From NCBI GenBank assembly GCA_012727425.1, contig JAAYHQ010000035.1, positions 1 to 64,000 on the forward strand: a DNA stretch of 64,000 nucleotides. Direction: 5' to 3'. The translations under genes and the position numbers were made by a program. This document shows positions 46,376 through 58,705 of this stretch, one piece after another (positions within the stretch are counted from its first letter, which is position 1; each line of letters starts with the position of its first letter). The DNA is from Bacillota bacterium (GTDB lineage: Bacteria > Bacillota > UBA4882 > UBA10575). Below the pieces are notes generated by a model. It made no database searches. It saw only the letters and a program-made list of their open reading frames with translations, and was not told the origin of the DNA.

Positions 46376-48235
46376 ATGAGAGAAAAATACGATGTGGCGG
46401 TGATTGGAGCCGGCCATGCCGGGTGTGAAGCGGCCAACGCCACCGCCAAAATGGGCTTTAAGACTTTACTGTTAACCATAAATTTCAATAATATTGCGTT
46501 TATGCCGTGTAACCCCTCGGTGGGGGGACCGGGAAAGAGCCATTTGGTCCGGGAGGTCGATGCCCTTGGTGGTCTAATCGGGCGGAATACCGACCGTGCC
46601 CATATCCAAATGCGGGCTTTAAACACCCAAAAAGGCCCGGCGGTCCGTGCTTTGCGAGCGCAGACGGATAAACATCTCTACCAACAGTATATGCAACAAT
46701 ATCTGGAAATGCAACCACTAATCACCATCCGTCAAGGGGAGGTCGTCGCCCTTGATCGCGTTAAGGATCTTTGGCGGCTGACCCTAAGCACCGGAATCAC
46801 TTTCGACGTGCCGGCGGTGGTAATTGCCACCGGCACCTTTTTACGGGGAAGGGTCCATATTGGCCCCTTATCTTTCCCCTCCGGTCCGCAGGGCCAACAT
46901 CCCGCCAATGCACTGGCCGAATACTTAGAAGCGCAAGGCATCAAGTTCAAACGATTTAAGACTGGGACGCCGGCCCGGGTCCGGAGACGGTCCCTTAATT
47001 TTGACGCCATGATTGAGCAGCCGGGTGACTGCTTAAGCCATGGCTTTTCCCATTGGTTGCCTTGGAATCCACGCCAACCGGTATCTTGCTGGTTGACTTA
47101 TACCAATGAAAAAACCCATGCGATCATCCGGAATAACCTTCACTTGGCACCCATGTATTGCGGCGCGATCACCGGGATTGGGACCCGGTATTGTCCGGCC
47201 ATCGAAAATAAAGTGGTCAACTTTCCTGAACGGGACCGGCATCAGGTTTTCATTGAGCCGGAAGGACTGAACACCGATGAGATGTATATCGCCGGGCTTT
47301 CCAGTAGTTTGCCGGAAGAGATCCAAGACCAGTTTATCCGTACCGTACCGGGGTTGGAAGCAGTGGAAATTGTCCGTCCCGGTTATGCCATTGAATATGA
47401 TGTGATTGCACCCGAACAACTCCAAAACAACTTGGCGATCCGAGGCTGGCCGGGAGTATTTTCTGCCGGGCAGATCAACGGTACTTCCGGTTATGAAGAA
47501 GCAGCCGCCCAAGGCATTATTGCCGGGATTAATGCCGGCTTATATTTGAAAGGGGAAGAACCTTTTACCTTGGGACGGAACGAGGCGTACATCGGGGTTT
47601 TAATTGATGATTTAGTAACCAAGGAAAACAATGAACCCTACCGGGTTATGACCTCCCGGGCAGAGTTTCGCCTTTCGCTCCGCCAGGACAATGCTGATTT
47701 ACGCTTGACCGAATATGGTTACCGTTTTAAGCTTATTACTGCCGAAGAATACGATTGTTTCCAGAAGAAGCGCCAGCGAATCGAGAAGAAGTTGAACTAC
47801 TTTAATGAGCACTATATTACGCCCGGCTCGGCGCAGGCCTGGCGTCTTAAAGAGTTAACCGGCGTCGAAGTAAAGCAGAAAACCAGTTTAAAACAGTTGC
47901 TGCGGATGCCGCAAATTCAGATTGCCGACCTTTGGGCTATTATCGATCCGGCCCAAGAGGCGCCCCTTGAGGACGAAGTGGTCGAAAATTTCATCAAATA
48001 CGAAGGTTATTTGGAACGGGAAGCAAAAATGGCGGCCCGTTTGGCAAAGATGGAAGAGAAGAAGATTCCGCCGGACTTTGATTACAGTGTGGTTCCGAAC
48101 CTCTCCTTTGAAGCCCGTGAAAAACTGGAAAAAAGGCGCCCGGCCACCCTTGGTCAAGCGGGGCGGATTAGCGGGGTGAGCCCGGCCGACCTGAGCACCC
48201 TTTTGATCTGGATTAGCAGGAGCAGCAAATCATGA
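46376..48235 (+). CDS. mnmG: tRNA modification enzyme MnmG (GidA)
   Basis: A 619-aa flavoprotein, the partner of MnmE. The FAD-binding motif VIGAGHAGCEAA is at the N terminus, followed by PCNPSVGGPGKSHLVREVDA (family signature) and ATGTFLRGRVHIG. ATG 46376 follows AGGGAGCGATGCG, 11 bases after the mnmE stop. Its stop overlaps the rsmG start. Confidence 0.98.
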   Translation: MREKYDVAVIGAGHAGCEAANATAKMGFKTLLLTINFNNIAFMPCNPSVGGPGKSHLVREVDALGGLIGRNTDRAHIQMRALNTQKGPAVRALRAQTDKHLYQQYMQQYLEMQPLITIRQGEVVALDRVKDLWRLTLSTGITFDVPAVVIATGTFLRGRVHIGPLSFPSGPQGQHPANALAEYLEAQGIKFKRFKTGTPARVRRRSLNFDAMIEQPGDCLSHGFSHWLPWNPRQPVSCWLTYTNEKTHAIIRNNLHLAPMYCGAITGIGTRYCPAIENKVVNFPERDRHQVFIEPEGLNTDEMYIAGLSSSLPEEIQDQFIRTVPGLEAVEIVRPGYAIEYDVIAPEQLQNNLAIRGWPGVFSAGQINGTSGYEEAAAQGIIAGINAGLYLKGEEPFTLGRNEAYIGVLIDDLVTKENNEPYRVMTSRAEFRLSLRQDNADLRLTEYGYRFKLITAEEYDCFQKKRQRIEKKLNYFNEHYITPGSAQAWRLKELTGVEVKQKTSLKQLLRMPQIQIADLWAIIDPAQEAPLEDEVVENFIKYEGYLEREAKMAARLAKMEEKKIPPDFDYSVVPNLSFEAREKLEKRRPATLGQAGRISGVSPADLSTLLIWISRSSKS

Positions 48236-48948
48236 ATAAAGCACAAAGTTTTCTGAACGATGTTTTACAGCCCTTTTCGGCACTGGACAATGTTAAGCGG
48301 GAGAAACTTTATGTTTTTTTAAAACTGGTTTTAGAAGAAAACCGCACCACCAACCTGACGGCGATCACCGATTGGGAAGAAGCAGTTATCAAGCACCTTT
48401 ACGATGCGCTGATGGTCACTGTTTTAACTAAGTGGGAAAAGTGGCGGGAGGTTCTCGACCTCGGTTCCGGGGCGGGACTGCCCGCGGTTCCTTTAGCCAT
48501 AACCTACCCGCAGCAGACCTACTATTTGCTGGAAGCCAGTCAAAAAAAGGCCGCCTTTTTACACCTGGTGAAAGAGCAACTTGCTTTGGAAAACATCGTT
48601 ATTTTAAACGACCGGGCCGAAAATTTGGCCCATAAAAAAACGCTCCGCGGCCGGTACCAGATGGTTACCGCCCGGGCTGTGGCTGAGCTTGCTGTACTGC
48701 TCGAACTAACCATCCCCTTCTGTGCTCCTGGCGGCTATGTTGTGGCCTATAAAGGACCCAACTACCAAACCGAGCTGGAAAAGGCTACACGCGCTCTGTT
48801 GCTACTGGATACGGTCCTGACCGAAGAATGGTCCTACCAATTGCCGTACAATTTGGGCTGGCGCACCCTCCTTGTTTTTCAGAAAAAAAGACCAACTCCC
48901 GAAAAATTCCCTCGACGGCCGGGAATTCCCGCGAAACGACCACTTTAA
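48232..48948 (+). CDS. rsmG: 16S rRNA (guanine527-N7)-methyltransferase RsmG
   Basis: A 238-aa class I methyltransferase with SAM motif VLDLGSGAGLPAVPLAI, substrate-side NLTAITDWEEAVIKHLYDAL and the TARAVAELAVLLEL stretch typical of GidB. ATG 48232 overlaps the mnmG stop (ATGA). A parS site begins two bases after its stop. Confidence 0.97.
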   Translation: MNKAQSFLNDVLQPFSALDNVKREKLYVFLKLVLEENRTTNLTAITDWEEAVIKHLYDALMVTVLTKWEKWREVLDLGSGAGLPAVPLAITYPQQTYYLLEASQKKAAFLHLVKEQLALENIVILNDRAENLAHKKTLRGRYQMVTARAVAELAVLLELTIPFCAPGGYVVAYKGPNYQTELEKATRALLLLDTVLTEEWSYQLPYNLGWRTLLVFQKKRPTPEKFPRRPGIPAKRPL

Positions 48949-48949
48949 A

Positions 48950-48965
48950 TGTTTCACGTGAAACA
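48950..48965. promoter_or_regulatory. parS centromere site
   Basis: TGTTTCACGTGAAACA is a perfect 16-base palindrome identical to the bacterial parS consensus, bound by ParB. It lies in the rsmG-parA gap. Confidence 0.95.
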
Positions 48966-49002
48966 TTTAAAGCAACGAAACAAGTAACGAAAACCAAAGT
49001 AA

Positions 49003-49042
49003 ATGGCGGCATAATCACCTGTGGGCAGCCGCCGTTTATTAT
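49003..49042 (+). terminator. Possible weak terminator upstream of parA
   Basis: GGCGGC and GCCGCC form a stem with a long loop, followed by GTTTATTATTT. The tail is imperfect, so some readthrough from rsmG into parA is expected. Confidence 0.4.
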
Positions 49043-49135
49043 TTCCTTCCGATTTTTAGCAGGAAGATCGGATTACGTTCGCGAACTAAAAAGTGATTCG
49101 AAATTGGTTGTCCAAGAGGCAAGGAGGTAAGCAGG

Positions 49136-49897
49136 ATGGGAAAAGTGTTTGCCATCACGAACCAAAAGGGCGGCGTCGGTAAAACGACCACCGCAGTTAA
49201 TCTCGGCGCCTACCTTGCGGTTTTAGGAAAAAAAGTCTTGGTTCTTGATAATGATCCCCAAGGTAATGCCACCAGTGGTCTGGGGTTACGGAAAAATGAG
49301 ATTAAAAAATGTATCTATGATGTTTTGGTGAGTGAGGTTCCGATTGAAGAGGTAATTCTTCCTACCCAGGTCCCAAACTTACTGGCGGCCCCGGCCACCA
49401 TTCGCTTGGCCGGGGCCGAGGCCGAGCTGGTCGGGATGATGGCCCGCGACCAGCGGCTCCGGCGCTCCCTGGAGCCAGTACGGAATGGATATGACTATAT
49501 TTTAATTGATTGTCCGCCTTCACTAGGCAATCTAACCCTTAATGCCCTGGCGGCGGCGGACGCGGTTATCGTTCCGATTCAATGTGAATATTACGCGCTT
49601 GAAGGCTTAAGTCAACTGATGAAAACTTTACAGTTGGTCCAGAAGTACTCGAACCCGTCGTTGGAAGTGGAAGGGGTGGTTTTAACTATGTATGACCACC
49701 GGACCAACCTGTCGCAACAGGTAGCTGAGGAAGTACGAAACTATTTCAAGGACCGGGTTTACAATGCCGTAATTCCTAGGAACATCCGGCTCAGTGAAGC
49801 GCCCAGCCATGGTCTGCCGATTAATCTGTATGACAGCAAGTCGAAGGGCGCTGAGTCCTATTATGAACTGGCTAAGGAAGTGATCGCCCGTGAGTAA
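49136..49897 (+). CDS. parA: Chromosome-partitioning ATPase ParA (Soj)
   Basis: A 253-aa ATPase with the deviant Walker A KGGVGKTTTAVNLGAYLA, the VLDNDPQGNATSGL segment and Walker B DYILIDCPPSL. It drives segregation of ParB-parS complexes and in Bacillus also tunes DnaA. ATG 49136 follows AAGGAGG. The short form without an N-terminal helix-turn-helix is the chromosomal type. Confidence 0.97.
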   Translation: MGKVFAITNQKGGVGKTTTAVNLGAYLAVLGKKVLVLDNDPQGNATSGLGLRKNEIKKCIYDVLVSEVPIEEVILPTQVPNLLAAPATIRLAGAEAELVGMMARDQRLRRSLEPVRNGYDYILIDCPPSLGNLTLNALAAADAVIVPIQCEYYALEGLSQLMKTLQLVQKYSNPSLEVEGVVLTMYDHRTNLSQQVAEEVRNYFKDRVYNAVIPRNIRLSEAPSHGLPINLYDSKSKGAESYYELAKEVIARE

Positions 49898-50765
49898 AAA
49901 CCGTGCTTTGGGTAAAGGCCTAGGGGCACTCATTTCCCAGTTGGAAGAGGAGGATCTCCAGAACACCCAGGAGATCCCGGTGGTAGACATCGAACCAAAC
50001 CCCTACCAACCCCGGCGGCACTTTGATCCGGAGAGCCTCGCGGAATTAGCCGCTTCCATTAAAGAGCATGGTGTTCTCCAGCCTTTGTTAGTCCGAAGGA
50101 AAGGATCCGGCTATCAGCTTATTGCCGGGGAAAGGCGCTGGCGGGCAGCGCAACAAGCCGGTTTGCGTACGGTTCCGGTTGTGGTGAAAGAGTTGGACGA
50201 CCGGACAATTATGGAGATTGCGCTGGTTGAAAACCTGCAACGGGAAGATTTAAATCCCATTGAGGAAGCTGAGGCCTACCAGCGCCTCATTACGGAGTTT
50301 AACTTGACCCAGGAAGAAGTGGCTAAAGCCGTGGGGAAAAGCCGGTCGGCTGTAGCTAACACCTTACGTTTACTTAACTTACCCGAGGCGGTTCAAAAAT
50401 TGGTTACCAACGGACAACTGACAATGGGGCACGCCCGGGCATTATTAAGCCTTGAACAACCGGAACAGCAGCTTTATCTTAGCGAAAAGATAATTAAAGA
50501 ACACTTGACGGTACGGGAGACGGAAGAATTGGTCCGCCAGGCGCTTCTTTCCGGTGTTTCACGTGAAACATCGACTGGGGAAAAGAAGAGGCAACCAGTA
50601 CGCCAAAGATTAGACCCTAACCTCCAAGCGATTGTTGAGGACATGACCAGGTTGTTTGGAACAAAGGTCCGCATTAAAAGCAGCGGGGAGCGGGGTAAGA
50701 TTGAGATTGAATTTTACTCGCAGGAAGAATTGGCGCGTATAACAGAGCTGCTTTTGAGTTTATAA
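49890..50765 (+). CDS. parB: Chromosome-partitioning protein ParB (Spo0J)
   Basis: A 291-aa CTPase and DNA-binding protein. Near the N terminus are IEPNPYQPRRHFDPESL and the CTP-binding GERRWRAAQQAG. The helix-turn-helix (about 140-170, LTQEEVAKAVGKSRSAVAN) binds parS, and the last 50 residues form the dimerisation domain. GTG 49890 overlaps parA by eight bases. The gene itself contains a parS site (50555-50570), which encodes VSRET. Confidence 0.97.
   Translation: MSKNRALGKGLGALISQLEEEDLQNTQEIPVVDIEPNPYQPRRHFDPESLAELAASIKEHGVLQPLLVRRKGSGYQLIAGERRWRAAQQAGLRTVPVVVKELDDRTIMEIALVENLQREDLNPIEEAEAYQRLITEFNLTQEEVAKAVGKSRSAVANTLRLLNLPEAVQKLVTNGQLTMGHARALLSLEQPEQQLYLSEKIIKEHLTVRETEELVRQALLSGVSRETSTGEKKRQPVRQRLDPNLQAIVEDMTRLFGTKVRIKSSGERGKIEIEFYSQEELARITELLLSL
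50555..50570. promoter_or_regulatory. parS centromere site inside parB
   Basis: A second perfect TGTTTCACGTGAAACA palindrome lies within the parB coding sequence, where it is read as V-S-R-E-T. Bacillus subtilis spo0J also carries an internal parS. Confidence 0.95.
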
Positions 50766-51222
50766 CAAACGGCCATAATTCAATAAACAATTTACTAATT
50801 TAGAGCAAAGTAATATCGTATCTTTAGTTCCGCTTGGGATCGATGGTGATATAAGGTAAGGCCCGAAAGGATGGTTGTCGGGTCATCCCGACCTAATATA
50901 TGGACAGCTATATGGCCAGCTGACGGCCTGCGTGTTAGGGGTTGGTTCGGAGGTTTTAAATTAAACCAATAACATGGCCTGGGAGCCGATACAGAGACGA
51001 AACTTGGCCTGTAGCGAACACCAGTTCGGATAATTATTGTTTGTCTTTGGTGCGCGTTTTGGAGAAAAACCACCTCTCGTTACTTGTTGTCTTTGGCTAG
51101 ACGGAGATAAAAAATACTTTAATTTTTGTTATGATCAAGAAATTCCATTTTATAAAAGGATGTCTTATGATCAGCAAGAATAATATTTATGGACAAAGAT
51201 TGGAGAAGAAGGAGCGTTCATC
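50766..51222 (+). other. 457-bp gap with RNA-like hairpins, no gene recognised
   Basis: No convincing reading frame was found on either strand. From about 50830 to 51030 the sequence is richer in G and C than its AT-rich flanks and contains several short inverted repeats: GTCGGG-TCAT-CCCGAC (50877-50892), GGTTT-6-AAACC (50952-50967) and CGAAC-ACCA-GTTCG (51015-51028). Two GGCCTG/GGCCTGG segments (50975-50982, 51006-51011) could join longer helices. It may be a non-coding RNA gene or a long leader of the DUF4446 gene. It does not match the landmarks I know of tmRNA, RNase P RNA, SRP RNA or 6S RNA. Confidence 0.4.
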
Positions 51223-51732
51223 GTGCAGACAGTGATCGAGTTCTTCAGTAATCTATCACCGCAGGAGAAAGTCATTTGGATCCTTCTCGTTATCCAGGGG
51301 CTTGTTTTTATCCTCCTGTTGGTCACCGGTTTTCAACTACATAAGCTTATGGCCCGCTACAAGTTGCTTCTGACCGGAAACCAGGGAGTAAATCTGGAGG
51401 ATATTCTACTTGACTTGGGAGAAAGGATGAAGAGCGTTGAGGAAAGGCTGCAAAACGGGGAGGTAAAGCTGGACCAGCTTGAGAAGGAGGCCGCTATGTA
51501 TTTGCAGCGTTGGGCGCTTCAACGGTATAAAGCCTTTGCGAACGTAGGCGGAGACCAGAGTTTTTCCCTTGTGCTTTTGGACCGTAATGGCGACGGTATA
51601 ATGCTCAGCAGCATCTACGGTCGGGATGAATCAAGGGTTTATGCCAAATCGATCAGTAACGGAAAGGCGAACTATCCCTTTTCCGACGAGGAACAACAGG
51701 TTCTAGCTGCTGCATTAGAGGGAAGAAAATAA
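51223..51732 (+). CDS. DUF4446 family protein
   Basis: A 169-aa protein with one N-terminal membrane helix (residues about 17-40), a coiled-coil stretch (EERLQNGEVKLDQLEKEAAMYL) and a C-terminal domain ending FSDEEQQVLAAAL. The stretch RYKAFANVGGDQSFSLVLLDRNGDGIMLSSIYGRDES is the family hallmark (seen as YKAFANVGGDQSFS). DUF4446 genes commonly follow parB in Bacillota; function is unknown. GTG 51223 follows AGAAGGAG. Confidence 0.9.
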   Translation: MQTVIEFFSNLSPQEKVIWILLVIQGLVFILLLVTGFQLHKLMARYKLLLTGNQGVNLEDILLDLGERMKSVEERLQNGEVKLDQLEKEAAMYLQRWALQRYKAFANVGGDQSFSLVLLDRNGDGIMLSSIYGRDESRVYAKSISNGKANYPFSDEEQQVLAAALEGRK

Positions 51733-51961
51733 GAAGAAAAGCAAAAAGCAGGAAGGATTTTTTAGGAAAAAGGAGAATATGTAACATACTATTGGCTAAA
51801 GTATGTCGGTTTTGCAAAATCTTCCCTACAGAAGATCAGCATTTTCGACTGCGGCCAGCAAGGACAAGGGAAGGCCAACCGTGCTGAAACGGGAACGGAA
51901 AACCGGAAGATAATGGCGGAAGGATCGTGGCATAATAGACTTAGTAAGCGGTGATAAAAAA

Positions 51962-52363
51962 GTGGTCGAGGACCGGACGACTTTAATCAATAAAATAAAG
52001 AAGTTTTGGCGAAAAAAAAGGGAAGTACATTATACTTTTATGTTGGTTCCCCGCGCATCCGGGGTAACAAAAAGTATTAATATCCCTTTTTTCATCATTG
52101 TCCTTTTTTTCCTGTTGTTTGCGGCTAATGTTTACTTCTTGGTCCGCTACCCCTTACGCCTTTCACAGATTGATGATTTGGACCGTAAAGTTTACCAGCT
52201 GAATGACGTGATTACGCGTAATGACAACGATTTGCGCGTGATAGACCCTTCAATCAAAAAGACAGAAGAATTTGAAGCAATTGTGGCGCAACATAGTGAG
52301 ATTATCAAGCAGATAGAGGCTCTATACCGGTCGATTCAGGACAAAAAAGCTGGTAAGTTTTGA
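51962..52363 (+). CDS. Peptidase-less paralogue of the M23 membrane anchor
   Basis: A 133-aa protein that matches only the N-terminal region of the two M23 proteins downstream. It shares a basic cytoplasmic tail (KIKKFWRKKREVHYTFMLVP), a membrane helix (about 40-60), the NVYFLVRYPLRLSQIDDL junction and a following coiled coil (VYQLNDVITRNDNDLRVIDPSI; compare IDPAI and LDPCI in the others). It stops where the long helical linker and the LytM domain would begin. Its own stop and GTG start with AGCGGTGATA upstream make a real truncated paralogue more likely than random decay. It might form mixed coiled coils with the full-length proteins. Confidence 0.75.
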   Translation: MVEDRTTLINKIKKFWRKKREVHYTFMLVPRASGVTKSINIPFFIIVLFFLLFAANVYFLVRYPLRLSQIDDLDRKVYQLNDVITRNDNDLRVIDPSIKKTEEFEAIVAQHSEIIKQIEALYRSIQDKKAGKF

Positions 52364-52411
52364 ATGCTTCTGTGGTGAGTTGGTGAATTTTCATAAATTG
52401 AGGAGTCAATT

Positions 52412-53401
52412 ATGGAAAGGGAAAAAAGACGCCGACCGGTTGGGTTCTCTTCCCGGCGCCGGAAAAAGGACAAAAGTTATCTTTTGGTGATGCTCCCCAA
52501 CAAACCGGAAAAGGTAAGGAGTGTCTATCTTCCCTTTGTTGTAATTGTCACCTTCTTTTGTTTAATGGGCGTAAATTTCTATTTTTTGATCCGTTATCCC
52601 TTACGGATTGCGGAAATCCATCGTTTAGAGCAGCAGATCATCGCCTGCAAACAGACTATTGCCCGGCAAGAAAAAGAATTGAAAATGATCGATCCGGCGA
52701 TCAGGACAACCCATAAAGTCGGGGAGATCATTAACCAACATAACCGTTTGGCGCTGGATTTAGAGAATAAATATAGCGAAGTTCGCGGAAACACCGGGCG
52801 GACCCGGGTCAGCCGGGGCGGAAGCAGCAGCTACCGTCCCTTCCAATTGCCCCAGTATAAATTGTCCAGCGCTGATACGGAGTTAACCAAACTTAATATT
52901 CTCAATAGCAATCTGGATTTTCTCGAAGAAGAACTAAATAAGACCAGTACACAACTGCAAGATCTGTATGAGCGTTTCAGTGCCTATAACCGGGAGTTGG
53001 ATTATACCCCCACCATATACCCGTTGGCGCAGAAAGGCTATTATTCTTCGTATTTTGGTTACCGGCGCGATCCGGTGACCGGGCAAATAGGTAGTTTTCA
53101 TGAGGGTTTGGATATTGCTGCCCGGGCAGGTACGCCAATCCGGGCGACCGCCGACGGCACAGTGGTCCGTGCGCGTGCTTATGGGACGTACGGGCTAATG
53201 GTCGAGATTAAACATGGTGCTTATGGTTACCGCACCAGGTATGCGCATAACAGCAGAATCCTGGTTCAAGAGGGACAAAAGGTGAAAAAGGGCGATATCA
53301 TTGCCCTTGTTGGCAGTACTGGAAAAAGTACCGGCCCCCACCTTCACTACGAAGTTCTTTTTAATGGTAAACCGGTTAATCCGCTAAACTATATACCGTA
53401 A
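52412..53401 (+). CDS. Membrane-anchored M23 (LytM) endopeptidase, copy 1
   Basis: A 329-aa protein. A basic cytoplasmic N terminus and one membrane helix (about 35-55, ending FYFLIRYPLRIAEI) are followed by coiled coil (about 60-200) and a C-terminal LytM domain (about 210-329). All zinc and catalytic residues are present: H230 and D234 in HEGLDIAA, H279 in RYAH, H310 and H312 in HLHYE. It should cleave peptide cross-links of peptidoglycan. ATG 52412 follows TTGAGGAG. A bactofilin gene follows 19 bases later. Confidence 0.93.
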   Translation: MEREKRRRPVGFSSRRRKKDKSYLLVMLPNKPEKVRSVYLPFVVIVTFFCLMGVNFYFLIRYPLRIAEIHRLEQQIIACKQTIARQEKELKMIDPAIRTTHKVGEIINQHNRLALDLENKYSEVRGNTGRTRVSRGGSSSYRPFQLPQYKLSSADTELTKLNILNSNLDFLEEELNKTSTQLQDLYERFSAYNRELDYTPTIYPLAQKGYYSSYFGYRRDPVTGQIGSFHEGLDIAARAGTPIRATADGTVVRARAYGTYGLMVEIKHGAYGYRTRYAHNSRILVQEGQKVKKGDIIALVGSTGKSTGPHLHYEVLFNGKPVNPLNYIP

Positions 53402-53420
53402 ATGATTAAGGAGGATACTG

Positions 53421-53867
53421 ATGAGAAAAAACAAGCAAGAATCAAACAACAGAGTTGGAAGTAGAAAAATTGACACCTTGATTGGCAAGGATTCCACCTT
53501 TACGGGTAATATAGAGTCGACCGGAACAATCCGGATCGACGGGAAGTTTGAGGGGGAAATCGTCACTAAAGGAGATTTAGTGATTGGGGAAAGTGGTGCG
53601 GTACAAGGGAAGATTAAAGCGGAAAATATAATCATTGCCGGTAAAGTCCAGGGTGAGGTGGAAGCCGCCGGGAAATTGGAGTTAGTGCCGACCGGGAACT
53701 TGCAAGGGGAGGCGAAAATGGCTCTCCTGGTGGTCGAAGAAGGTGCGGTCTTCCAAGGGAACTGCCAGCAGTATAGTAAAGACAGTAAGGAAAAGGGCAA
53801 GTTTTTACCGATTGGTACGCCGTCCGAACCAAAAGGACAACCGCCCAGAGAACAGAACCAGCGTTAA
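53421..53867 (+). CDS. Bactofilin, copy 1
   Basis: A 148-aa bactofilin. The beta-helical core spans residues about 15-115 with the usual repeats (DTLIGKDSTFTGNIESTGTI, IDGKFEGEIVTKGDLVIG, AENIIIAGKVQGEV). Bactofilins polymerise without nucleotide at the membrane and position cell-wall enzymes. The C-terminal tail (from about 118) is charged, proline-containing and probably disordered. ATG 53421 follows AAGGAGG. Next to an M23 endopeptidase it may scaffold that enzyme, as reported for other bactofilin-M23 pairs. Confidence 0.93.
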   Translation: MRKNKQESNNRVGSRKIDTLIGKDSTFTGNIESTGTIRIDGKFEGEIVTKGDLVIGESGAVQGKIKAENIIIAGKVQGEVEAAGKLELVPTGNLQGEAKMALLVVEEGAVFQGNCQQYSKDSKEKGKFLPIGTPSEPKGQPPREQNQR

Positions 53868-53932
53868 GCCACAAGCCATGCTGGACTTGGCTGAGTAATC
53901 CTCAGTGCCGAGTGTGTTTGTAAAACAAGAAA

Positions 53933-54919
53933 ATGACGATGGTGGCAAAGATGAATGAAGTAGATAGCCGGGCTTTTTTTATACGGAAAAAAAGAAGAAG
54001 GAAGAAGGAAAAAGGGTACCTCCTGCTGATTGTCCCCAACAAAAAAGGGAAGATTAAATCAGTGCCCATCCCTTACCTTGTCTTCATCACCTTCTTCGTG
54101 ATAATGACGATCAACCTTTATTATCTCATTCGTTATCCGTTCCGTATTTCGGAGATTTGGCAGCTGGAGCAACATATATTAAATTTGCGCCAGATCATTG
54201 CCAAACAGGATAAAGAATTACGGCGCCTTGATCCATGCATAAAGGCAACCCAGACGATGGCCGGCAGATTAGATGCCACCAATCGTTTTTATGCGGAGAT
54301 GGAGGCAGAGTATGATCGTCTCCGCAACGTAAAGTCCAGAAAAGAAGTGTTAACGTACCGGGAAGTATATTTACCCGGTTACCGACTGTCCAGTGCCGAC
54401 CAGGACTATTCCAAGCTGGAGATTTTGAACAACAATTTGGAATACCTCGAAGAGGAGATTGCGTTTACCAGCTCCGCCTTGGACGAGCTGTTGAATAAAT
54501 ACAAAACTTACGACCGTCAACTTGACTTTATCCCGACGATCTGGCCGTTGGCGCGTGAACGGCGGATTTCTTCCGGTTTTGGTTACCGGCGGCACCCGGT
54601 CCATAAACGGGTGATTCTCCACCAGGGAATTGATATTCCCGCCCGGATCGGAACGCCAGTCCGCGCTACGGCAGAAGGGGTCGTGACGATTGCCGGTAAC
54701 CGGGGCGGGTATGGACTTTTGGTTGAAATTAACCATGGTAACGGATACCGGACGCGTTACGGACATAACAGCCGCCTGGCGGTGCGGGTTGGGCAAAAAG
54801 TGAAAAAAGGACAGATCATTGCCTACGTCGGTAATACCGGGACAAGCACCGGCCCCCATGTTCATTATGAAGTACGCCTTAATAATGTTCCGGTAGACCC
54901 AACACCATTTTTAAATTGA
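53933..54919 (+). CDS. Membrane-anchored M23 (LytM) endopeptidase, copy 2
   Basis: A 328-aa paralogue of the protein at 52412, with the same order of basic tail (KKRRRKKEKGYLLLIVPNK), membrane helix ending NLYYLIRYPFRISEI, coiled coil and LytM domain. The active site is complete: H230 and D234 in HQGIDIPA, H278 in RYGH, H309 and H311 in HVHYE. The two full copies keep matching segments such as YRLSSADQDYSKLEILNNNL (KLSSADTELTKLNILNSNL in copy 1). The start is uncertain: ATG 53933, 53939 or 53951, the last having GGTGG upstream. A second bactofilin follows. Confidence 0.93.
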   Translation: MTMVAKMNEVDSRAFFIRKKRRRKKEKGYLLLIVPNKKGKIKSVPIPYLVFITFFVIMTINLYYLIRYPFRISEIWQLEQHILNLRQIIAKQDKELRRLDPCIKATQTMAGRLDATNRFYAEMEAEYDRLRNVKSRKEVLTYREVYLPGYRLSSADQDYSKLEILNNNLEYLEEEIAFTSSALDELLNKYKTYDRQLDFIPTIWPLARERRISSGFGYRRHPVHKRVILHQGIDIPARIGTPVRATAEGVVTIAGNRGGYGLLVEINHGNGYRTRYGHNSRLAVRVGQKVKKGQIIAYVGNTGTSTGPHVHYEVRLNNVPVDPTPFLN

Positions 54920-54936
54920 AGGGGTCGAGAGCGATT

Positions 54937-55269
54937 ATGGAAGGGAAAAATCAGATTCAGACGATCATTGGGAAAGCCACCTCTTTTCAGGGGACGATTG
55001 GTTCGGAGGAAAATATTCTCATTGAAGGGAAACAGAAAGGTGAGATTATCACCGAGGGAGACCTATATATTTCGGAAACCGGAGAAGTGGAAGGAAAGAC
55101 CCAAGCCAATAATCTTTTACTGGCCGGCGTCTTACACGGGGAGACAAAGGTGAGCGGAAAGATGGAGATATTAGCAACCGGAAAATTTCAAGGTGAGGCG
55201 GAAATGTCCATCTTTGTTGTGGAAGAAGGTGCCGGTTTTCAGGGTGAATGCCGGCAAAACAAAAGGTAA
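54937..55269 (+). CDS. Bactofilin, copy 2
   Basis: A 110-aa bactofilin consisting almost only of the beta-helix core (TIIGKATSFQGTIGSEENI, IEGKQKGEIITEGDLYIS, NNLLLAGVLHGETKV). It lacks the disordered C-terminal tail of copy 1, which may give a different partner or assembly behaviour. I prefer ATG 54937; an upstream TTG 54916 overlapping the M23 stop would add seven residues but has no ribosome binding site. A terminator follows at 55317. Confidence 0.9.
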   Translation: MEGKNQIQTIIGKATSFQGTIGSEENILIEGKQKGEIITEGDLYISETGEVEGKTQANNLLLAGVLHGETKVSGKMEILATGKFQGEAEMSIFVVEEGAGFQGECRQNKR

Positions 55270-55316
55270 TAGCCGAAAGAGGCTTGCCAGTAAAAACGGA
55301 GCGGTATAAGAAAATC

Positions 55317-55344
55317 AAGCCCCTTAAAAGAAAGGGGCTTTTTC
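55317..55344 (+). terminator. Terminator after the M23/bactofilin cluster
   Basis: AAGCCCCTT (55317-55325) pairs with AAGGGGCTT (55332-55340), followed by TTTT. It closes the cluster that starts at 51223 or 51962. Confidence 0.9.
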
Positions 55345-55458
55345 ATATATTAATATATAAATAAAGCAGCGCAGTGGTATGGAACAATCCCAGGTGGTGG
55401 GCGCTAGAAACAGTTTTTGGTACAACCGATCGTACGGAAAAAGGAAAAGGTGAGAAGT

Positions 55459-55869
55459 TTGCGGTTTCAACCTTCAAAAACAAGGGCCCAAAAAATACTG
55501 GCCGCAAAACTACGGGGTGAAAAGATTCATTTTTTAGAAAACCAGTGGCTGGAAGGGCTGGAAGTAGACCTCCTTCTGCCCAATTATTACTTGGTGATCG
55601 AGATTGATGGTTTTTTTCACTTAAGTGCGGGGCAGCAAGAAAAGGATCAACAAAAAGACCAACGGTTGGAAGCGGCCGGCTACCATGTTTTGCGTTTTAC
55701 CAACTCCCAAATCTACCAGAACAGTAAAGAATGCCTGCGGCAGATTAGGGCCTTCATTGACGGCCAGGAGTCACAGCTCAAAAAAGGAGCCTGTCCGGAA
55801 GAGGAGCAGGCTCCATGGCAAAGTAAACTGGCCGCTTATAAAAAGCGGCTTGACCAAGAAGAAGAATAA
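55459..55869 (+). CDS. DUF559 / Vsr-like endonuclease-fold protein
   Basis: A 136-aa protein of the DUF559 family, which shares the restriction-endonuclease fold with Vsr. The pattern TRAQKILAAKLRG, then LEVDLLLPNYYLVIEIDG (catalytic D and E-I-D) and LRFTNSQIYQN is typical (usual form: RVLRFxNxEV). Its role is not known. I favour TTG 55459, after AAAGGTGAG; TTG 55417 would add 14 residues. It is convergent with gcvPB and has no recognisable partner. Confidence 0.8.
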   Translation: MRFQPSKTRAQKILAAKLRGEKIHFLENQWLEGLEVDLLLPNYYLVIEIDGFFHLSAGQQEKDQQKDQRLEAAGYHVLRFTNSQIYQNSKECLRQIRAFIDGQESQLKKGACPEEEQAPWQSKLAAYKKRLDQEEE

Positions 55870-55907
55870 ATAAAAGGCAGAAGTTTAATGGGGGCGGACG
55901 GCGGAAT

Positions 55908-57362
55908 TTACCACTTTAGGACCGGACGGCGTGCCGCTTGCGCCTCGTCTAAACGCCGTACGGGTGTGGTATAGGGTGCTGCTTTTAGTTTCTCCGGTGC
56001 CTTTTTGGCTTGGTCCGCGAGTTCTTTCATGATCGCGACAAAGGAATCCAAGAGGTCAAGGGTGACCGCTTCCGTTGGTTCAATCATTAAGGCTTCGGCG
56101 ACGATTAAAGGAAAATAGATGGTCGGGGGATGGACACCGTAATCCAGAAGGCTTTTGGCCAAATCCAAGGTTCGGACGGCACTGGGGTTATCCTTTAACC
56201 CGCCGAGGACAAACTCGTGCATACAATGGCGGTCATAAGGAAGATGATAGTCTTCCTTTAATAAGGTCTGGAGATAATTGGCGGCCAAGACCGCATCGGA
56301 GGAAACCTGTCTTAACCCGTCAAAGCCAAGGGAATAAATGTAGGCCAGGGCTTTGATGATCACCGTAAAGTGACCCCAAAAACCCTTTACTTTTCCAATG
56401 CTCCGGGGAGCATTATAACTCCACTGAAAGCCGGTTGCTGTCGGGACGACCCGGGGTACCGGTAAATATGGAGCCAGGTGGGCTTTGACGCCCAACGGTC
56501 CGGAACCGGGACCGCCGCCGCCATGGGGGGTGGCAAAAGTCTTATGTAGGTTGAGATGGACGAGGTCAAACCCCATATCACCGGGGCGGGCCCAGCCCAT
56601 GATGGCGTTGAGGTTGGCGCCGTCGTAATAAACCTGACCGCCGATGTCATGGACCATCTGGGTGATGGTTAAAATCTTCTCTTCAAAGAGGCCCAAGGTG
56701 TTGGGGTTGGTCAGCATCAATCCGGCCACCCGGGGTGACAGATAAGGTCTTAGATCGTCGGGTTCGATAATCCCGGCGGGCGACGAAGGGATCTTTTGGA
56801 CTTTGAAGCCGGCCAGTGCCGCACTGGCGGGGTTGGTGCCATGGGCGGAGTCGGGGATCAGAATGATCTCCCGCGCATGTTCACCCTGGTCCCGGAGGGC
56901 TGCTTTAATAATCAACAAACCGGTCAATTCGCCGTGAGCGCCGGCGGCCGGTTGCAACGTAAAGGCATCCATCCCGGTGATTGCCGCAAAGGTTTTTTCC
57001 GCTTCGTGGATTAAACGAAGGGCGCCTTGGATGTGGGCTTCATCCTGTAAAGGGTGGAGGTCACGAAAGCCGGGCAATGCGGCGACATCTTCCAAGAATT
57101 TGGGGTTGTATTTCATTGTGCAAGAGCCCAGTGGATAGAAGCCCTGGTCAACCCCGAAGCTGCGCTGGGACAATTGGGTGAAGTGGCGGGTGACATCCAT
57201 TTCGCTCAGTTCGGGCAAGTTCAGTGGGGTGGTGCGGCGAAAAGAAGACGGAATCAGCTCTTCCTCCGGGGTGGGTGGCAGATCGGAACCGGGGGGAAGA
57301 TAGCCCCGCCGGCCCGGGACGGAAGCTTCGTTCAACAAAACGGGTCCGGCTTTCTTTTTCAT
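55908..57362 (-). CDS. gcvPB: Glycine dehydrogenase (decarboxylating) subunit 2
   Basis: A 484-aa PLP enzyme, the C-terminal half of the split P-protein of the glycine cleavage system. The PLP lysine is in LNLHKTFATPHGGGGPGSGP, preceded by DSAHGTNPASAALAGF. ATG 57362 overlaps the gcvPA stop (ATGA) with GAGAGG upstream. Together with gcvPA it decarboxylates glycine onto the lipoyl arm of GcvH. Confidence 0.97.
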   Translation of the reverse strand: MKKKAGPVLLNEASVPGRRGYLPPGSDLPPTPEEELIPSSFRRTTPLNLPELSEMDVTRHFTQLSQRSFGVDQGFYPLGSCTMKYNPKFLEDVAALPGFRDLHPLQDEAHIQGALRLIHEAEKTFAAITGMDAFTLQPAAGAHGELTGLLIIKAALRDQGEHAREIILIPDSAHGTNPASAALAGFKVQKIPSSPAGIIEPDDLRPYLSPRVAGLMLTNPNTLGLFEEKILTITQMVHDIGGQVYYDGANLNAIMGWARPGDMGFDLVHLNLHKTFATPHGGGGPGSGPLGVKAHLAPYLPVPRVVPTATGFQWSYNAPRSIGKVKGFWGHFTVIIKALAYIYSLGFDGLRQVSSDAVLAANYLQTLLKEDYHLPYDRHCMHEFVLGGLKDNPSAVRTLDLAKSLLDYGVHPPTIYFPLIVAEALMIEPTEAVTLDLLDSFVAIMKELADQAKKAPEKLKAAPYTTPVRRLDEAQAARRPVLKW

Positions 57363-58705
57363 TGTAAACACCTCTCAATCTCTTCGCAAAAGCGGTCCAT
57401 TTCGGCTTTGGTTCGTAATTCGGAAGTATACAAAAGATAAGCGTCGGTCGCAAACGGTTGGCCTGGAGGCAACTTATAGCCGGGGAGGAAACCTTTCTCT
57501 TTCAGTTTCGGGATCAAAGCATCCCCTGCGGTGGGCAGGCCAATCACAAATTCATGGAAAAAGGGTTCGGGAGAAAGGCCCTGTACCGCGGGAATCCTGG
57601 TCAATTGGGCGTAAAGGTAATGGCTGTTGCGAACCGTGGACAGCGCCATCTCTCTTAAACCGGCCGGACCCAGCAAGGCCAGATAGGCGGTGGCGGTTAA
57701 GGCACAGAGCGCCTGGTTGGAACAGATGTTAGACGTAGCTTTTTCACGCCGGATATGTTGCTCCCTGGTTTGCAGCGTTAAGACAAAGCCTTCTTGCCCA
57801 TCCAAATCCGTGGTTTTCCCCACCAGCCGACCGGGCATGTTCCGGAGAAAATGCTTTTTGGCCGTGAAAAAACCGAGGTAGGGTCCGCCAAAGGAAAGGG
57901 GTAAGCCGAACGACTGCGCTTCACCGACCACCAGATCCGCGCCCATCGCGCCGGGGGGTTCCAGAAGGCCAAGGCAGATCGGATCGTTGATATAAACAAT
58001 GGATAACGCGCCGCTGTCCTTAATTAAGGAGAGTAATTTTTTGCTCAACCGCAGACGGCCATAGAAATCTGGATACTGAATGACCACCGCGGCGATTTGG
58101 TCCGAAAGCATGGCGGAGAGCGCGGTTTCGACCTCCGGTTCCGGTGAGGCCAATAGTCTTACCTTCACCGGTAAGTGGGCGGTATAAGTCTGGAGCACCT
58201 GCTGGGCTTCGGGGTGCAGGCCGGAAAGAACAATCACTTCCGGTTTGTTGCTGACGTTATGGGCCAACAAGACCGCTTCGGCCAGAGCGGTTGGTCCGTC
58301 GTACATAGAGGCATTGGCCACTTCCATTCCGGTCAAGTCCGCAATCAAGGATTGGAATTCAAAGAAGGCCTGGAGCAGTCCTTGGCTGATCTCCGGTTGA
58401 TAGGGGGTATAAGCGGTCAGGAATTCGGAACGGTTAACCAAATAGGGCAGGGCGGAAGGAATAGCGTGTTCGTAAGCACCGGCGCCCAGAAAGGAAATGA
58501 GCTGTGAGACCGGGGTGTTCTGTGCGGCCCATTGGGCGAAGAGCTTTTTGACTTCCCACTCATTGCGGGCGGGCAAATCAAAAAAAGCTTGGGCGCGAAT
58601 CGTCTCCGGAATGATCTGAAACAGCGCGGACGGGTCTGGAATGCCAATGACCTTCGCCATTTGACGCCGTTCCGGATCGGTTAAGGGTAAATAAGGATGG
58701 CCCAT
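57359..58705 (-). CDS. gcvPA: Glycine dehydrogenase (decarboxylating) subunit 1
   Basis: A 448-aa protein of normal length for the split form: MGHPYLPLTDPERRQMAKVIG start, FLGAGAYEHAIPSALPYLVNR, TAYTPYQPEISQGLLQAFFE (ENxTxYQPEISQGxLQ family signature). ATG 58705 follows AGAGGTG, eight bases from the gcvT stop. No gcvH lies between gcvT and gcvPA, where it is often found. Confidence 0.97.
   Translation of the reverse strand: MGHPYLPLTDPERRQMAKVIGIPDPSALFQIIPETIRAQAFFDLPARNEWEVKKLFAQWAAQNTPVSQLISFLGAGAYEHAIPSALPYLVNRSEFLTAYTPYQPEISQGLLQAFFEFQSLIADLTGMEVANASMYDGPTALAEAVLLAHNVSNKPEVIVLSGLHPEAQQVLQTYTAHLPVKVRLLASPEPEVETALSAMLSDQIAAVVIQYPDFYGRLRLSKKLLSLIKDSGALSIVYINDPICLGLLEPPGAMGADLVVGEAQSFGLPLSFGGPYLGFFTAKKHFLRNMPGRLVGKTTDLDGQEGFVLTLQTREQHIRREKATSNICSNQALCALTATAYLALLGPAGLREMALSTVRNSHYLYAQLTRIPAVQGLSPEPFFHEFVIGLPTAGDALIPKLKEKGFLPGYKLPPGQPFATDAYLLYTSELRTKAEMDRFCEEIERCLQ

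Follow-up and report, generated by a model that had tools for sequence, protein, structure and literature searches.

A duplicated bactofilin–M23 module with an anchor-only M23 paralogue beside parABS in Bacillota

A module pairing a bactofilin with an M23 peptidase has been reported in 226 species of many phyla, and in LmdC a cytoplasmic hairpin is required for recruitment to the bactofilin (Pohl et al. 2024, PMC10945521). The M23-type proteins Csd1, which is active, and Csd2, which is degenerate, heterodimerise via their helical domains, and their genes accompany that of the bactofilin CcmA (PMC5053510). In Caulobacter, an enzyme-free PbpC anchor (PbpC1-132), when overproduced, replaces the membrane-targeting sequence of BacA (PMC12448750). 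Here we analysed 64,000 nucleotides of contig JAAYHQ010000035.1 of a Bacillota bacterium (assembly GCA_012727425.1, positions 1 to 64,000; referred to as the window), which carries two M23–bactofilin pairs in tandem, preceded by a short paralogue of the M23 proteins that has no LytM domain. The cluster is real, inherited and coherent, and is a variant of the described module rather than an undescribed system. Its identity as a bactofilin–M23 morphogenetic module of the LmdC/Csd1 type is very likely; that such a module was duplicated once and accompanied by a truncated, anchor-only M23 copy is, on balance, the probable explanation of the locus as a whole.

Two modules and their probable common origin

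The two enzyme genes, both on the forward strand, are M23-1 (52412–53401; PF01551, E = 2.2e-36) and M23-2 (53933–54919; PF01551, E = 1.5e-36), and their products share 50% identity. Catalytic motifs are intact in M23-1 (HEGLD/AHN/HLHYE at 230/278/310) and in M23-2 (HQGID/GHN/HVHYE at 230/277/309), which rules out M23-2 as a degenerate copy; an earlier note on this DNA had stated that both copies keep their active-site residues, and HxxxD and HxH are indeed present. The AlphaFold2 (AF2) model of M23-1 contained helices at residues 40–125 and 157–198 and a LytM domain resembling ShyA, Csd1 and LytM. The best sequence match of the M23 profile in the PDB was the Csd1 chain of 5j1l (2.7e-44). Sequence and structural features of the LmdC type were found, namely an adjoining bactofilin gene, a hairpin (from the motif and the model of the short paralogue), a transmembrane (TM) helix, a coil and a C-terminal M23 domain. 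The two proteins are most likely peptidoglycan endopeptidases of the LmdC/Csd1 type, as predicted from their sequences. Identity with SpoIIQ was rejected, as they scored 53.9 and 56.2 bits against the NCBIfam equivalog cut-off of 250. Another M23 gene lies directly upstream of an mreB-family gene (G000:C8:45248-46981), and this SpoIIQ-like neighbourhood makes it, rather than the bactofilin module, the probable SpoIIQ locus. Orphan M23 proteins of two other genomes (G024 and G028) keep the catalytic motif, written HCH (read by eye). An M23 scan of named genomes returned mostly other M23 proteins and two family members, both in unclassified Bacillota metagenome-assembled genomes (MAGs).

Bactofilin-1 (53421–53867, +; PF04519, E = 6.6e-30) and bactofilin-2 (54937–55269, +; PF04519, E = 3e-22) scored 103.7 and 79.2 bits, respectively, against a cut-off of 27.9. 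For bactofilin-2, the ATG at 54937 (110 amino acids) is the more likely start than the TTG at 54916, on the evidence of its orthologues. Both proteins keep the polymerisation Phe, with GAVFQG and GAGFQG aligned to GAFFQG of 2n3d; the equivalent residue of Caulobacter BacA is F130, and the substitution F130R blocks polymerisation. The note had described the bactofilins as differing by a disordered tail. The tails do differ, but not by disorder alone: bactofilin-1 and the single bactofilins across the class share a motif, K-E-[KR]-G-[KR]-x-L...TP (DLKERGKxLxxxTP-like), which is absent from all 12 bactofilin-2 proteins. The ratio of nonsynonymous to synonymous substitution rates (dN/dS) between congeners was 0.03–0.06 for bactofilin-1 and 0.07–0.18 for bactofilin-2, values that are approximate, as are the other ratios given here, because dS was high (0.4–1.9). 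With its tail motif lost and its evolution faster, bactofilin-2 has probably diverged in its partners. Bactofilins of the family start with MRKNK, MKREN or MEGKN, those of the window with MRKNKQ and MEGKNQ (start codons predicted), and phylum outgroup bactofilins start with MF-K/R (MFNKK/MFKRG/MFGRR). MFSKKKK is the reported global membrane-targeting motif of bactofilins, common but not obligatory (PMC12448750). On the predicted starts, the usual N-terminal membrane-targeting (F2) motif is absent from the bactofilins of this family.

In the M23 tree, the M23-1 clade (support 100/99) and the M23-2 clade (100/100) were sisters (100/99), with the single copies of genera g3 and g4 outside, and grouping of M23-1 or M23-2 with single copies was rejected (approximately unbiased test, p-AU 0.006). 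The bactofilin tree recovered a bactofilin-2 clade (100/100) and its union with bactofilin-1 (92/88). Placement of bactofilin-1 with the single copies of the family to the exclusion of bactofilin-2 was rejected (p 0.023); bactofilin-1 as one clade was not (p 0.27). The genomes with two modules formed one clade (100/100) in the tree of ParA, ParB, DUF4446, RsmG and MnmG. Since one M23–bactofilin duplication on the branch of this clade explains all three trees, the pair likely underwent a single duplication, as a unit, in the ancestor of four genera; enzyme and bactofilin were presumably duplicated at strictly the same time. The trees agree with the duplication as a unit that had been proposed earlier: independent acquisition is rejected for the second M23 (p 0.006) and disfavoured for the second bactofilin (p 0.023).

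In the class to which the window belongs, 27 of 29 genomes encoded a bactofilin, and the order parA-parB-DUF4446-M23-bactofilin was found in nearly all loci read. A bactofilin was present in 84 of the 150 genomes of the phylum sample, with an M23 gene directly upstream on the same strand in at least 73 of these 84. The single parAB-DUF4446-M23-bactofilin module occurs in the sister genera, in the class and in further members of the phylum, and is the ancestral state in the class. The tandem pair with the anchor was found only in genera g1, g2, g5 and g6, that is, in 12 of 16 family genomes belonging to one clade. All 12 retain the short paralogue, M23-1, bactofilin-1, M23-2 and bactofilin-2; in one other genome (G029) two modules lie on separate contigs. 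A cluster confined to the source genome, which the note had named as an outcome that would speak against it, is ruled out by its co-conservation in these 12 genomes of four genera. Two further loci were observed elsewhere. Megasphaera micronuciformis (L067) has parA, parB, DUF4446 and M23 at the locus, where no bactofilin was found, and a Limnohabitans MAG (L102:1802-7533) combines in one locus an M23–bactofilin pair with a divergent group of M23 and bactofilin-like frames.

The reading of the note was that each module would serve its own wall-cutting machine at its own site, with the sporulation septum or the poles as possible examples. Two complete modules are kept together in 12 genomes, bactofilin-2 has lost the class-wide motif and evolves faster, and Spo0A was present in 21 of 21 near-relative genomes searched, with or without the double module. 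Bactofilins are reported to organise ParABS in Myxococcus (PMC5703909). However, the positions of ParA and ParB there are not significantly affected by bacM, the bactofilin gene beside parAB, and the paralogues BacN/O/P appear to co-assemble (PMC5703909); as the polymerisation Phe is kept in both bactofilins of the window, these could co-polymerise likewise. Since Spo0A also occurs in single-module relatives, the second module is not a requirement for sporulation. Specificity for sporulation was rejected on these grounds; across the phylum the association is weak (p 0.003), and kinship confounds it, with Spo0A missing from 5 of 84 bactofilin genomes and bactofilin from 51 Spo0A genomes. We regard two separate machines as improbable.

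The anchor-only paralogue

The short paralogue (ANC; 51962–52363, +; 133 amino acids) lacks both a Pfam match and a LytM domain, and its homology is to the N-terminal region of M23-1 (whole-genome search, E = 1.2e-20; also recovered as an ortholog set). Its AF2 model (mean predicted local distance difference test, pLDDT, 79) consisted of a short cytoplasmic helix, a beta-hairpin (24–28/37–41) and a single helix (43–129) spanning the membrane segment and the coil. The hairpin motif Y-[TL]-h-M-h-h-P-N ... [RK]-S-h-x-[IL]-P was present in ANC, M23-1, M23-2 and every relative with a complete N-terminus. Across the same 12 genomes, the hairpin of ANC was 78% identical, compared to 60% in M23-1 and 62% in M23-2, and the hairpin, TM segment and coil of ANC were all more conserved than the matching regions of both enzymes. 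The approximate dN/dS between congeners was 0.05–0.12 for ANC and, for the same region, 0.09–0.18 for M23-1 and 0.16–0.32 for M23-2. Given the low dN/dS and the greater likeness of all three parts, ANC is a maintained protein. In the tree of the N-terminal module it formed its own clade (100/100), and in sequence it was nearest to the single-copy enzymes.

A profile of the N-terminal module matched 65 places outside the family in the phylum sample (E ≤ 1e-6), 61 of which lie within 2.5 kb of a bactofilin gene. Among anchor-bearing genomes, family included, 64 of 65 encoded a bactofilin, compared to 84 of 150 overall (p ~3e-23, a value that ignores kinship and comes from a profile trained on bactofilin neighbours). 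Because hairpin anchors sit near bactofilins and co-occur with them, these counts support, but do not prove, the hairpin as the putative bactofilin-binding part in the phylum.

We infer for this lineage that the hairpin binds bactofilin, that ANC acts as a tether and that wall cutting is affected as follows. Bactofilin filaments would lie on the inner face of the membrane and bind the cytoplasmic beta-hairpin of the bitopic M23 proteins, and this recruitment would focus endopeptidase activity on the wall next to them. With the N-terminal targeting motif missing, the bactofilins of the family probably rely on bitopic clients for membrane attachment. ANC would most likely tether the filaments without adding a hydrolase, and would probably occupy client sites or coil with the M23 proteins. 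The tether is our best guess, put forward tentatively, because the hairpin, TM segment and coil are retained, the targeting motif is missing and the PbpC anchor offers a precedent. The arrangement suggests that filament tethering is separated from wall cutting.

Several points weigh against this interpretation. The targeting motif is missing from single-module relatives in the family too, and these carry no anchor-only gene; ANC is thus not strictly needed for tethering. ANC grouped weakly with single-copy N-termini (81/63), and one clade of ANC, M23-1 and M23-2 was not rejected; bactofilin-2 sits on a long stem, its exact attachment weakly placed; and the hairpin of M23-1 itself had low pLDDT before residue 36 in the AF2 model. 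The high dS given above belongs here as well.

The main rival to the tether is that ANC is chiefly a non-catalytic, Csd2-like dimer partner or regulator of the M23 enzymes, coil pairing setting the number of active LytM domains per filament. The coil register is common to ANC, M23-1 and M23-2, gapless over residues 61–110, which makes mixed coiled coils plausible at the sequence level, and both the Csd1/Csd2 heterodimers encoded with CcmA (PMC5053510) and the match of the M23 profile to Csd1 of 5j1l fit such pairing. However, Csd2 retains a degenerate LytM domain and ANC has none, Csd1 and Csd2 dimerise via helices flanking LytM and not via a membrane-proximal coil, and co-conservation of the coil fits a homodimer or a heterodimer alike. 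We consider this role rather unlikely as the chief one; it and the tether are compatible.

Two related proteins were observed elsewhere. In another family of the phylum (G038), a free-standing hairpin-TM-coil protein of 120 amino acids without LytM is encoded at L143:4466-4828 (-), with no adjoining bactofilin; this is an independent anchor-only paralogue. The genome G024 has, at L142:4914-5881 (-), a hairpin-TM-coil frame containing a stop, followed by what is left of the LytM end (GPHLHVE) and by an intact bactofilin, and also a separate intact M23 (L049). The L142 frame may represent loss or decay of LytM underway, or an assembly fault.

Concerning the tether, it is conceivable, though we hold this with still less confidence, that membrane attachment moved from the N-terminal motif of the bactofilin to a dedicated, enzyme-free, M23-derived hairpin anchor, so that scaffold placement and wall cutting would be controlled separately, similar anchor-only proteins having arisen independently (L143, possibly L142).

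Tandem duplicates often persist for dosage. On this ground the copies could be mostly redundant or serve dosage, with the anchor left over from a third copy, and the remnant of LytM loss beside a bactofilin in another genus (L142) would agree with this. Yet purifying selection acts on ANC, both enzymes and both bactofilins, each of which is kept in 12 of 12 genomes, M23-1 and M23-2 differ at half of their residues, and the N-terminal module is best conserved in ANC, contrary to what a decaying remnant would show. Redundancy is accordingly a doubtful explanation, and we give it little weight.

Locus layout and context

The order in the window is parA-parB-DUF4446-anchor-M23-1-bactofilin-1-M23-2-bactofilin-2-terminator, all on the forward strand. 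The context genes parA (49136–49897) and parB (49890–50765; PF17762, PF02195, PF23552) are accompanied by two perfect parS sites, TGTTTCACGTGAAACA at 48950–48965 (+) and a second within parB at 50555–50570 (+), against 0.01 expected with up to two mismatches allowed; these sites confirm parABS. The DUF4446 gene (51223–51732, +; PF14584, E = 1.9e-41) is kept between parB and the M23–bactofilin module across the class, as seen from synteny, and a literature search on DUF4446 found no paper. An intrinsic-terminator-like hairpin at 55317–55340 (+), with nine pairs, five of them GC, followed by a T run, closes the cluster. The six-gene order, the terminator and the parABS neighbourhood given in the earlier note were all recovered as open reading frames, Pfam domains, hairpin and parS sites. 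An inverted repeat, ACATAC-N11-GTATGT, lies at 51784-51806, between the DUF4446 and anchor genes, and is a possible operator. A sigma-70 promoter scan gave 9 matches compared to 6.2 ± 2.8 in shuffled sequence, a difference too small to be informative, and an Rfam scan of 48000-57500 gave no match.

Comparison with described systems

The best-studied bactofilin–M23 modules are those of curved or stalked Proteobacteria; here such a module is the default beside parAB in a Spo0A-bearing lineage of Bacillota. The note had called the positioning of M23 enzymes by bactofilins known in Proteobacteria, which holds for the type of module, but the module is not chiefly one of Proteobacteria, and in the Bacillota sample it is the norm. 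The note's further statement, that the arrangement had no known description, does not hold for the module itself, described by Pohl et al. (2024); our literature search for a tandem bactofilin–M23 duplication found none. New, at the level of sequence, are an anchor that keeps hairpin, TM and coil without LytM and is better conserved than the corresponding part of the enzymes, the adjacency of 61 of 65 hairpin anchors elsewhere in the phylum to a bactofilin, the family bactofilins without the F2 motif, and a second bactofilin without the class tail motif. A natural anchor-only client parts the predicted bactofilin-binding segment from the catalytic one, and the cluster is a natural experiment on the role of the beta-hairpin and on the membrane access of bactofilins without a targeting motif.

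In Myxococcus xanthus, bacM likewise lies immediately downstream of parAB, but the link to ParABS there runs via BacP and PadC of the BacNOP-PadC-ParABS system and not via bacM, and the available part of that report describes no M23 link (PMC5703909). BacA–LmdC of Hyphomonas neptunium and Rhodospirillum rubrum (PMC10945521) shares with the window an M23 gene adjoining the bactofilin gene and a bitopic M23 protein with a cytoplasmic beta-hairpin, TM helix, coil and C-terminal M23 domain; the window differs in its two tandem modules and anchor-only paralogue after parAB-DUF4446, known here from sequence. Csd1/Csd2/CcmA of Helicobacter pylori (PMC5053510) also combines two M23-type paralogues with a bactofilin, and the Csd1 LytM domain is the best PDB match. 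Instead of one active and one degenerate LytM paralogue, as in Csd1/Csd2, the window encodes two intact M23 copies, an ANC without LytM and two bactofilins. PbpC–BacA of Caulobacter crescentus (PMC12448750) resembles the locus in having a bitopic client whose cytoplasmic N-terminus binds the bactofilin. The client there, PbpC, is a synthase with an artificial anchor fragment, whereas the anchor-only protein of the window is the product of a natural gene.

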